Shown here in pieces: positions 54,392 to 56,768 of a DNA stretch of 64,000 bases. Location of the stretch: positions 62,001 through 126,000 of the forward strand of contig NZ_JARVSD010000018.1 in NCBI RefSeq assembly GCF_030209445.1, written 5' to 3'. The stretch is from Promicromonospora sp. MEB111. Its GTDB lineage: Bacteria; Actinomycetota; Actinomycetes; Actinomycetales; Cellulomonadaceae. Each line of letters begins with the position of its first letter. Within the stretch, counting starts at the first letter, position 1. Both the position numbers and the translations under genes were made by a program. The notes under the pieces are model-generated. The model searched no databases, had not been told where the DNA came from, and saw nothing but the letters and a program-made list of their open reading frames with translations.

Positions 54392-55279
54392 GTGACTTTC
54401 AGCGAGGGCGGGCAGTTCGAGGGCGGCCGGGTCCGCAAGGGCGGCGGGCGCCGGGGCGCCGTCGGCGCGGGTGTCGGCGGCGGTGCGGCGCTTGTCATCG
54501 CGCTCCTGTACATGGTGCTGACCGGCAACAGTCCGGCCGACATCCTCGGGACCACCACCGACAGCGGGGGCGGCGGCGAGCAGGGCTACATCGGCGCGTG
54601 CACCGCCGAGCAGGCGAACGCCGACCCCGAGTGCCGGCTCAATGCCGCCGTGGACTCGCTGGACGTCTACTGGGCCGAGACGCTCCCGGAGCAGGGCGGC
54701 GTGGAGTACGAGCTGCCCGAGGTCGTCAGCTTCACCGGTGCGGTCGACACCGGCTGCGGTTCCGCGACGTCGGCCACGGGGCCGTTCTACTGCCCGGCCG
54801 ACACGACCGTGTACGAGGACCTCTCGTTCTACGACCAGCTCTCCAGCCAGTTCGGCGCCGAGGGCGGGCCGCTGGCTGAGATGTACGTGACGGCGCACGA
54901 GTTCGGGCACCACATCGAGAACCAGCTCGGGCTGTTCGAGCGGGCCGACCGGTCGGGCACCGGCCCCGAGTCGGACTCCGTGCGCATCGAGCTCATGGCG
55001 GACTGCCTCGCCGGGATGTGGGCCGGCAACGCCGCGACCACCGAGGACCCGGACACGGGCGTTCCGTTCCTTCAGCCCATCTCGCAGGCGGAGCTGGAGC
55101 AGGCGCTGTCCGCCGCCGCGGCCGTGGGCGACGACAACATCCAGCGCCGCTCCGGCGGCGACGTGAACCCCGAGGCGTTCTCGCACGGCTCCAGCGAGCA
55201 GCGCGTGCGGTGGTTCTCGATCGGCTACGACGGCGGCACGATCCAGGACTGCAACGCCCTGGACGCGCGCACCCTCTGA
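54392..55279 (+). CDS. neutral zinc metallopeptidase (YpfJ family), membrane-anchored
   Basis: 295 residues. Cytoplasmic Gly/Arg-rich start, one helix (GGGAALVIALLYMVLTG), then a domain beginning CTAEQANADPECRLNAAVDSL. Zinc motif HEFGHHIENQLG, third ligand in IELMADCLAGMWAG, and the RxRWFSIGYDGG end are characteristic of the family. GSATSATGPFYCPADTTVYED is the family substrate-edge strand. Substrate proteins unknown. Confidence 0.9.
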   Translation: MTFSEGGQFEGGRVRKGGGRRGAVGAGVGGGAALVIALLYMVLTGNSPADILGTTTDSGGGGEQGYIGACTAEQANADPECRLNAAVDSLDVYWAETLPEQGGVEYELPEVVSFTGAVDTGCGSATSATGPFYCPADTTVYEDLSFYDQLSSQFGAEGGPLAEMYVTAHEFGHHIENQLGLFERADRSGTGPESDSVRIELMADCLAGMWAGNAATTEDPDTGVPFLQPISQAELEQALSAAAAVGDDNIQRRSGGDVNPEAFSHGSSEQRVRWFSIGYDGGTIQDCNALDARTL

Positions 55280-55282
55280 CGT

Positions 55283-55288
55283 TACGGT
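55283..55288 (+). promoter_or_regulatory. -10 hexamer TACGGT for the thrS leader transcript
   Basis: TACGGT ends 7 nt before the leader-peptide ATG at 55296, matching the other leaderless promoters here, so transcription probably begins at the leader peptide. Confidence 0.45.
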
Positions 55289-55295
55289 GGGCGGC

Positions 55296-55346
55296 ATGCA
55301 CCTCAGCGCACGCACGACGACGCCGGACCCCTCCGGCGCGCGCTGA
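55296..55346 (+). CDS. threonine-rich leader peptide of the short thrS gene
   Basis: 16 codons, MHLSARTTTPDPSGAR, stop TGA 55344-55346. Three consecutive ACG (Thr) codons at 55314-55322. It precedes a threonyl-tRNA synthetase gene and an attenuator hairpin, the arrangement of ribosome-mediated attenuation. A ribosome stalled at the Thr codons would leave CTCCGG (55331-55336) free to pair with CCGGAG (55368-55373), part of the terminator stem. A ribosome that reaches the stop codon would cover it. The mechanism is inferred; leader codons, hairpin and alternative pairing are seen directly. Confidence 0.65.
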   Translation: MHLSARTTTPDPSGAR

Positions 55347-55363
55347 CCTGCTTTCAGCACCCA

Positions 55364-55390
55364 GGCCCCGGAGCTCGCTCCGGGGCCTTT
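55364..55390 (+). terminator. attenuator hairpin upstream of thrS
   Basis: GGCCCCGGAGC (55364-55374), loop TC, GCTCCGGGGCC (55377-55387), then TTT. Perfect 11-bp G+C stem, 53 bp before the thrS ATG and 17 bp after the leader stop. Competing stem: CTCCGG 55331-55336 with CCGGAG 55368-55373; a small CCGGA/TCCGG hairpin (55323-55336) could sequester that strand. Confidence 0.65.
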
Positions 55391-55442
55391 GCCGTGCACG
55401 ACGACGGCACCGGGGCGGCTCCACCATCGAAGGAGCACCGTC

Positions 55443-56768
55443 ATGAACGCCCCCGCACCGAACCAGCGGTCTCAGGCACCCGCCGTCCTCGACCACCGTG
55501 CCCTCGGCCGCGACATGCGGATCTTCGACACCAGCCCGCTGGTCGGGCCCGGCCTGCCGCTGTGGCTGCCCGCCGGCGCGGCGATCCGGTACGAGCTGGA
55601 GCAGTACGCGCGCGAGGTCGCGCTGCGCACCGGCTGCGAGCCGGTGTACTCGCCGGTGCTCGGCAAGCGGTCGCTGTACGAGCGCTCGGGCCACTGGGCC
55701 AAGTTCGCGGACGACATGTTCCCGCCGATGTACCTGGGCGGGAACGCTGACAGCTCGGGCTCGGCTCCCGACCTCGACGGCAGCCCGGACGCGGACGCCG
55801 ACCCCCTCGTGCTGCGCCCCGCCAACTGCCCGCACCACGCGCAGATCTATGCGTCCGAGCCGCGCTCGTACCGCGACCTGCCCGTGCGGTACTCGGAGCT
55901 CGCGTCGATGTTCCGCGCCGAGCGGTCGGGGGTGCTGTCGGGGCTGAGCCGGGTACGGCAGATCAACCTGGACGACGCACACGTCTTCTGCCGTCCCGAC
56001 CAGGTCGGGGCCGAGGTGCGCACCGCGCTGGCCGCCGTCCTGGAGGTGCTCGACACCCTGGGCATCGAGGTGGCGTACCTGCGCCTGTCCGGCCGGGACG
56101 CCTCCGAGCGGTGGCTCGGCGCGCCCGAGCGGTGGGCCGCGGCAGAGGAGGCGCTGCGCGCGGTGCTCGACGACGTCGCCTCGCCCGCCGGCCTGCCGTG
56201 GCACGCCGAGGCCGGTGAGGCGGCGTTCTACGGCCCCAAGATCGACGTCCAGGTGCTCGACGCGCGCGGCCACGAGGAGACCCTCGCCACCGTCCAGCTC
56301 GACTTCAACCAGCCCGAGCGGTTCGACCTGACCTACGTCGCGGCGTCCGGCGAGCGCGAGCGGGTCGTGATGATCCACCGCGGCACCGTCGGCGCGATGG
56401 AGCGGATGGTCGCGTTCCTCCTGGAACGGCACGGCGGACGGCTCCCGTTCTGGCTCGCGCCCGTGCAGGTCTGCCTGCTGCCGCTGCCGGACGCCCCCGA
56501 CCAGCTCGTCGACGATCTCGCCGCGGACCTGAGGGCCCGCGGCCTGCGGGTCCGGGTGGAGCGGGAGGGGTCGCTGGGCAGCCGGATCCGCAAGGCCCGG
56601 CAGCGGCGGGACGCGCTGCTCGGCGTGCTGGGCGCGCGCGAGGTGGCGGCGGGTGCGCTGGCGGTGACCGATCCGGCGTCGGGCGCCAGGGCCTCGGTGC
56701 CGCTCGCCGAGCTGGGCGACCGCCTGGCCGAGGCGGCCCGCAGGCGCGTGCCGCGGGTCAGCCTGTGA
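55443..56768 (+). CDS. thrS: short threonyl-tRNA synthetase lacking the TGS and editing domains
   Basis: 441 residues from ATG 55443 with SD GGAG. It starts at the catalytic core; the N-terminal TGS and editing (N2) domains, about 240 residues in normal ThrRS, are absent. Class II motifs: RYSELASMFRAERSG (motif 2), GTVGAMERMVAFLLE (motif 3). The zinc ligands correspond to C in RPANCPHH, H in DDAHVF and H in VMIHRG. The anticodon-binding domain ends the protein (LAPVQVCLLPLPDAPDQLVDDL, REGSLGSRIRKARQRRDALLGVLG). Likely a second, inducible ThrRS, expressed on threonine starvation or inhibition; similar short forms act as self-resistance or backup enzymes. Confidence 0.88.
   Translation: MNAPAPNQRSQAPAVLDHRALGRDMRIFDTSPLVGPGLPLWLPAGAAIRYELEQYAREVALRTGCEPVYSPVLGKRSLYERSGHWAKFADDMFPPMYLGGNADSSGSAPDLDGSPDADADPLVLRPANCPHHAQIYASEPRSYRDLPVRYSELASMFRAERSGVLSGLSRVRQINLDDAHVFCRPDQVGAEVRTALAAVLEVLDTLGIEVAYLRLSGRDASERWLGAPERWAAAEEALRAVLDDVASPAGLPWHAEAGEAAFYGPKIDVQVLDARGHEETLATVQLDFNQPERFDLTYVAASGERERVVMIHRGTVGAMERMVAFLLERHGGRLPFWLAPVQVCLLPLPDAPDQLVDDLAADLRARGLRVRVEREGSLGSRIRKARQRRDALLGVLGAREVAAGALAVTDPASGARASVPLAELGDRLAEAARRRVPRVSL

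Follow-up and report, generated by a model that had tools for sequence, protein, structure and literature searches.

An auxiliary, antibiotic-resistant tryptophanyl-tRNA synthetase (TrpRS) gene of Streptomyces coelicolor is reportedly controlled by ribosome-mediated attenuation, in work attributed to Vecchione and Sello in 2010, and the drug resistance of the enzyme is said to have been established by experiment. In its logic this appears to be the closest known system to the locus described here, where an extra actinobacterial synthetase gene likewise follows a leader with cognate codons and an attenuator. Since tryptophan has a single codon, the division of codons between leader and gene reported below is impossible in the TrpRS system. 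A threonine leader before thrS is known from Streptomyces lividans TK24, in which thrL, encoding MKRVRPFLETTPGFVPAR, lies upstream of SLIV_19410 and is leaderless according to RNA-seq (PMC8079986). Its TTP...VPAR part resembles one of the leaders of our class survey (MKRAQPFLTTTPDSVPAR, L139). In contrast to the element described here, thrL is a single case with two Thr codons, and termination was called unclear; a short paralog, an antiterminator, conservation of thrL and a codon split are not mentioned in the available part of that paper (PMC8079986). SLIV_19410 presumably encodes the short form of the enzyme.

Attenuators before synthetase genes are not new to actinobacteria. Seliverstov et al. 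(2005) predicted attenuators for trp operons as well as for trpS and leuS, the latter two with leader peptide, terminator and antiterminator before the synthetase gene as at the present locus; the accessible part of that survey reports no conserved RNA structure upstream of threonine operons and does not name thrS (PMC1262725). In Anabaena, the available text describes a pair of threonyl-tRNA synthetases (ThrRS), T1 and T2, the second of which is defective in editing and induced upon failure of the main enzyme, which edits in trans (PMC4787780). A second, editing-deficient ThrRS is thus common to both cases, but the Anabaena gene is under Zur and zinc control and not attenuation (PMC4787780). 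The E. coli thr operon leader shares the Thr codons, but serves another gene with another codon, as it contains eight ACC codons; the choice of regulatory codon is explained by charging sensitivity in the part of the source available (PMC1183508). Among the open-access matches listed, no title or start of an abstract named a conserved attenuator of a second thrS (thrS2) or an ACG-free thrS2 (subscription papers lay mostly outside this search), and the available part of PMC2965389 names neither. The element described here is very probably a widespread attenuator of this known, ribosome-mediated type.

The window, i.e. the whole stretch of 64,000 nucleotides of Promicromonospora sp. MEB111 that was analysed, contains the features summarized in Table 1.

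Table 1. Features of the thrS leader region in the window and residues of interest in the protein
Feature	Position	Strand	Remark
-35-like element TGGACG	55260-55265	+	read from the sequence
-10-like element TACGGT	55283-55288	+	17 bp after TGGACG, 7 bp before the leader ATG
Promoter, whole	55260-55288	+	predicted start at the leader ATG, giving a leaderless transcript
Leader peptide ORF, MHLSARTTTPDPSGAR	55296-55346	+	16 codons plus TGA at 55344-55346
Three ACG Thr codons, sensing run	55314-55322	+	in frame within the leader
Segment 1, CGCCGGA	55321-55327	+	would lie under a ribosome that stalls at any Thr codon (footprint assumed)
Segment 2, CTCCGGCG	55331-55338	+	partner of segment 1 or, as antiterminator, of segment 3
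Segment 3, AGGCCCCGGAG	55363-55373	+	hairpin 5' arm; CCGGAG is the antiterminator partner
Segment 4, CTCCGGGGCCT	55378-55388	+	hairpin 3' arm; short T run to 55390
AAGGAG	55430-55435	+	likely thrS ribosome binding site
Short threonyl-tRNA synthetase, 441 aa	55443-56768	+	ATG at 55443; catalytic and anticodon-binding domains only
P0001, residues aligned to borrelidin contacts	residues 127, 176, 314		Ala/Ser, Leu, Gly/Ser versus ordinary Met, Gln, Ala

The anatomy given in the original prediction proved right: the leaderless-type promoter, the 16-codon leader with three consecutive ACG codons, and a sequence able to disrupt the hairpin (CTCCGG at 55331-55336, complementary to CCGGAG at 55368-55373) were all found again. 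The terminator-like hairpin (55363-55388) has a perfect 11-bp stem, as claimed, and the loop CTCG, but is followed by TT and not by TTT, the third T being the last base of the stem. Sixteen bases separate the leader from the hairpin, and 54 bases, AAGGAG among them, the hairpin from thrS. A 7-bp hairpin pairing CGCCGGA (55321-55327) with TCCGGCG (55332-55338) forms stem 1:2; it was absent from the earlier description and completes the classical attenuator set. The folding of the RNA is more stable than expected from shuffled sequences (z = -4.86; 0/200 shuffles equally stable). No match was obtained with a sigma-70 promoter scan of the TTGACA/TATAAT type between 55100 and 55500. No Rfam model reached the gathering level in the window, hence no T-box or other Rfam leader was recognized, and the lowest E-value between 55250 and 55460 was 0.27, far under the gathering score of the respective family. 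From its sequence, the region is very likely a classical ribosome-mediated transcription attenuator that would couple an auxiliary, editing-less ThrRS to the charging of Thr-tRNA, and the mechanism originally proposed is very probably right.

Conservation of the arrangement was explored with loci chosen by protein alone. In a protein scan of named genomes, the best 80 of 405 related stretches were examined, and 61 of these (L036-L095 and L097) carried short forms; together with the window they make up 62 protein-first loci, for the selection of which the leader was not used. The remaining stretches were full length (L096, L098-L114) or cut by the contig end (L115, left out of the short set). 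The closest short-thrS relatives of the window among the matches listed belong to Promicromonospora, and the genera among these matches further include Antribacter, Isoptericola, Microlunatus, Planosporangium, Rhodococcus, Saccharopolyspora, Nocardioides, Geodermatophilus, Kribbella, and Micromonospora.

All 62 loci turned out to have a leader, with three consecutive in-frame Thr codons in 59 and two in the other three (L069, L073, and L083). Thr occupies the first position of the run in 59/62 loci and the second and third in 62/62, and the codon behind the run is CCG in 61/62; the residues flanking the run vary and Thr is kept. A hairpin stem of 7-16 bp follows the leader in every locus, with a different layout in L082 (the same as L186, and the one leader common to the protein-first and the class set) and L094. 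One CCGG core is missing in L079, L088, and L180. An automatic, strict scan for three Thr codons, TAnnnT and an 8-bp hairpin recovered 51/62 short loci and 0/3100 shuffles. Applied to full-length thrS, the same scan found 3/39, these three having been picked with the covariance model R1 introduced below, and 0/36 of the others, some of which are non-actinobacterial. The arrangement of leader and hairpin is far beyond chance, and the Thr run, both CCGG segments and the following hairpin, whose conservation the prediction had made decisive, recur in many actinobacterial genera.

The promoter box recurs as well. When the nearest in-frame start (ATG preferred) was taken as start codon, independently of the box, TAnnnT lay 5-9 nt upstream of it in 57/62 loci, compared to 52/3100 random positions, and a Shine-Dalgarno-like motif precedes the leader in 3/62. 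In the window, a gene for a YpfJ-type zinc metallopeptidase (54392-55279), read from the same strand, stops 16 bp short of the leader start. This proximity would suit a different reading, in which the hairpin is the terminator of the peptidase gene, the thrS promoter lies after the hairpin and the leader ORF has arisen by chance. Relatives of the metallopeptidase, however, were found in the upstream flank of ten other Promicromonospora loci and in none of the remaining 51. Leader and hairpin accompany thrS instead, and the hairpin is therefore not just a terminator for this neighbour. Moreover, TAnnnT is present between hairpin and thrS in 1/62 loci and not in the window, which gives little reason to expect transcription to begin after 55390, the second outcome that the prediction had named against itself. 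A three-Thr ORF alone is found in 59/62 loci versus 21/3100 shuffles. We regard the terminator of a neighbouring gene as a highly improbable explanation.

An attenuator additionally demands alternative folds in the right places. With the first Thr codon as origin, a simple motif rule places the median end of segment 1 at base 13, the start of segment 2 at base 19 and the stop codon at base 30. If the ribosome footprint is assumed to reach about +15, a ribosome held at Thr1 or Thr2 occupies segment 1 but not segment 2, and one at the leader stop occupies segment 2. The 2:3 fold is worth -18.7 kcal/mol before segment 4 is made; a ribosome stalled at Thr3 would cost segment 2 one base and reduce the fold to -14.6 kcal/mol. 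The 1:2 motif was found in 120/122 leaders (L188, which is not a leader, being left out), and median energies over 123 rows, which include L188, were -11.2 for 1:2, -16.4 for 2:3 and -23.9 kcal/mol for 3:4. By sequence and folding, 1:2 and 2:3 are mutually exclusive and so placed that a stall frees segment 2. Once segment 4 is present, hairpin 3:4 belongs to the minimum-free-energy fold at every stall position. As 3:4 is more stable than 2:3, antitermination must be kinetic, with 2:3 forming first, as in classical attenuators.

The prediction had also expected compensatory changes in the stems. A change from U-A to C-G does occur in the antiterminator, but the independent events amount to one or two on the protein tree, with two changes in segment 2 and one in segment 3. 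Own 2:3 partners paired better than swapped ones (-16.75 versus -15.35, p = 2e-4, 94 distinct pairs, in a test that ignores relatedness). The pair adjoining CCGG is U-A, C-G or U-G in 50/55 distinct combinations, again ignoring relatedness and with 7/123 rows that had no clear core dropped. Phylogenetic proof of covariation failed for the small number of independent changes on the tree; the strongest support for the attenuator consequently comes from conservation and codon use, not from covariation.

The leader might also act via translation, RNA stability or Rho, with the position of the ribosome being decisive and the hairpin an inefficient terminator. The short T runs of many members point in this direction: the eight bases after the stem contain at most three T in 25/62 protein-first loci and in 56/60 loci of the class set, and a terminator scan requiring 5 T in 8 gave no match between 55100 and 55500. 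Against it stand the 7-16 bp hairpin of all 62 loci, which 2:3 excludes in the standard layout, the at least five T in eight bases in 21/62, and the position of the thrS ribosome binding site, which is found about 40 nt past the hairpin and outside it. Control other than by intrinsic termination is, in our view, quite improbable.

Under transcription attenuation, RNA polymerase would initiate at the leader ATG, and the leaderless transcript would be engaged by a ribosome. With Thr-tRNA(CGU) charged, this ribosome would reach the stop codon and cover segment 2, 3:4 would form and transcription would end before thrS. A shortage of Thr-tRNA would instead stall the ribosome on the ACG run, where it would cover segment 1; 2:3 would pair and pre-empt the hairpin, and thrS would be transcribed. 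Starvation or a ThrRS inhibitor, both named in the original prediction, may be the natural trigger of such switching, and its benefit may lie in a supply of ThrRS when charging fails. If true, the circuit would explain how a synthetase without proofreading can be kept largely silent in many actinobacteria until Thr-tRNA falls, and its inducible, Thr-specific element could serve as a reporter of ThrRS inhibition in these bacteria.

The codon split between leader and gene is unusually clear and is the surprising part of the system. In the Thr run of the 62 protein-first leaders, 163/186 codons are ACG; the first codon of the run is ACG in 43 loci, ACC in 12, ACT in 3, ACA in 1 and another codon in 3. 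The corresponding count in 122 leaders (340/366) leans upward because the class finder required Thr-Thr-ACG-CCG, which all class loci with thrS behind an R1 match passed, and the count from the 62 loci is preferred. The short thrS genes behind these leaders show the opposite usage, with 15/577 Thr codons being ACG versus 35% (0.351) in neighbouring ORFs, corresponding to odds of 0.049; L044, in which the match starts before an in-frame stop, was dropped from this comparison, and the flank of the window was taken as 50-62 kb. The ACG share was below that of the flanking ORFs in 54/55 loci, and as the loci are related, p-values for codon use are overstated. The window gene has no ACG among its nine Thr codons, and of the 493 Thr codons in 56 class-set short genes, which were picked by R1, two are ACG. 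Genes for tRNA-Thr with the anticodons CGU, GGU, and UGU are all present in the genome of the window.

Avoidance of ACG might alternatively result from codon optimisation, from foreign origin, or from the short enzyme charging the CGU isoacceptor poorly. Small shifts of NNG codons relative to the flanks are indeed seen in Ser (odds 0.77), Leu (0.84), and Gly (1.31), but Ala, Pro, Val, and Arg remain at 0.98-1.04, and none of these seven families (0.77-1.31) comes near the value for Thr. Likewise, in the same aligned region of 13 genomes with both paralogs (12 of them from the genus of the window), ACG makes up 2/124 Thr codons in the short and 94/218 in the full-length gene; Ala, Pro, Ser, Leu, Gly, and Arg shift in NNG use between these paralogs too, far less than Thr. 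Full-length thrS genes that carry the leader are also low in ACG over their first 235 residues (10/227 versus 75/259 in 18 ordinary genes from other families), with Ser TCG falling as well, and thrC of the window genome uses ACG for 12/22 Thr codons. Taken together, such other causes are an unlikely source of the split.

According to selective-charging theory, leader codons are expected to be those read by the most charge-sensitive tRNA (available part of PMC1183508). Avoidance of the leader's codon by the controlled gene would follow from the same logic, and a leader sensing ACG before an ACG-poor gene is independent support for the attenuator, as selective tRNA charging would predict it. The thrS message, being almost free of ACG, should be translatable when the ACG-reading tRNA is uncharged. 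We therefore find it reasonably probable that a codon-partitioned alarm circuit has spread across Actinobacteria, with ACG as the alarm codon of the leader and a rescue thrS that is nearly ACG-free, in which loss of charge on tRNA-Thr-CGU would both open thrS and be unable to block its translation. Such a circuit would offer selective-charging theory a natural test beyond E. coli, as the alarm codon and the codons of the rescue gene differ in the sequences of many genera.

Thr makes up 2.3% of the codons of short ThrRS genes versus 6.2% in flanking ORFs, and the number of Thr residues is about half that of the homologous part of the full-length enzyme (8.96 versus 17.4). The low Thr content fits the codon-partitioned circuit. 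Lys, Asn, and Phe are also low in short ThrRS.

The window protein scored 393.4 bits with TIGR00418 (thrS equivalog; cut-off 383.65). Pfam gave tRNA-synt_2b and HGTP_anticodon and found no TGS or editing domain, in agreement with the ThrRS lacking these domains that had been described from the DNA. No N-terminal-domain match at E = 1e-8 was found in the frames of 133 short loci, the contig-cut L115 included. At the positions that we take to be the zinc ligands of the ThrRS catalytic core, Cys, His, and His are conserved in 129/129 short sequences, among which the same gene occurs twice in some cases. A zinc-sparing paralog was considered, and the active site with its intact ligands speaks against it. 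The genome of the window also encodes a standard ThrRS on another contig (C22), with no Thr-Thr-Thr-Pro run in the stretch examined upstream of its gene. In the congener G001 (L274), no short thrS was found, and the stretch examined upstream of its full-length gene contains no TTTP.

Fourteen positions of the alignment distinguish short from full-length ThrRS (129 short and 38 full-length sequences, including duplicates, and non-actinobacterial proteins in the full-length set). In the short enzymes, Met332 is replaced by Ala or Ser, Gln381 by Leu, and Ala513 by Gly or Ser, in E. coli numbering taken in part from the alignment. These positions align with the borrelidin contacts Met411, Gln460, and Ala592 of human ThrRS. 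According to the available part of PMC4389257, the latter three are among the contacts altered in borrelidin-resistant archaeal ThrRS. Staphylococcus aureus ThrRS, a standard enzyme, has Leu at 381 and Gly at 513 and thus two of the three short-type states, which weakens the idea of borrelidin resistance and leaves it as a lead. It is rather doubtful, judging from these residues, whether the short ThrRS might also tolerate natural ThrRS inhibitors; the auxiliary TrpRS of S. coelicolor is drug-resistant by experiment, whereas the short ThrRS is known by substitutions of contact residues only. Resistance of the borrelidin type via Leu489 was dismissed: Gln is found at this position in 123/129 short but also in 21/38 full-length sequences, so the position does not separate the two groups.

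To survey the class, a local profile of short proteins was used, with which held-out short sequences scored at least 565 bits (437 for the contig-cut L115) and full-length ones at most 473; class counts relied on a similar alignment (A2), and the covariance model R1 was built on 52 leaders. Short thrS was present in 62/394 class genomes (A2). In 59 of these 62, an R1 match ends 29-264 nt upstream of the protein match on the same strand, and with one leader recognized by eye (G227) the total is 60/62; in the other two (G206 and G341), contig ends leave too little upstream sequence. At E < 1e-6, R1 matched away from short thrS in five genomes, namely G285 (contig end), G320 (chance), G425, G292, and G403. 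The matches in the latter three lead into full-length thrS, and no short copy was found in these genomes at the cut-off used. With E up to 0.01, R1 matched 139/394 class genomes, which indicates that weak matches are mostly not this element. Ten weak matches, from nine class loci and from L117 of the window's own genome (E = 0.002), were inspected by eye as possible Thr attenuators of other genes and none fitted; they were hairpins of tRNAs or of gene ends, or coding DNA, and lacked a suitable leader and gene.

The family of G403 was surveyed separately. Among its 150 genomes, 80 have one R1 match each at E up to 1e-5. Short thrS was found by the profile in 49/150, with R1 within 400 nt upstream in 49/49, and of the other 31 matches, 22 lead into full-length thrS (L133, L160, L172, L248-L252, L254-L261, and L263-L268; in L250 the Thr run has decayed). 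At the cut-off used, these 22 genomes gave no short thrS. Five further matches are short-type leaders with a gene that is broken as read or contig-cut (G472, G484, G499, G521, and G539), two are orphan leaders (G469 and G482), and those in G536 and G554 were put down to chance. The original prediction that the leader controls a backup synthetase thus stands insofar as the leader precedes a short, spare thrS, but the tie to a backup enzyme does not, because 22 genomes of one family carry the leader on full-length thrS. We accordingly see the element as an attenuator of thrS, placed before the spare gene where this is present and otherwise, in part of the G403 family, before the full-length gene.

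A FastTree phylogeny of 130 catalytic domains placed 115 short sequences on one side of a supported branch and 15 full-length ones on the other, with the warning that long branches meet between the two groups. If this split holds, the element has sat before two different lines of thrS.

Some remnants were observed in passing. L262 (about 500-620) retains an intact TTTP leader and hairpin, and L253 (about 500-600) a decayed leader (TTAP) and hairpin, with no thrS found behind either. In G499, the short thrS matches in two pieces (L241, 1644-2749) whose frames disagree, possibly due to a frameshift or an assembly error.
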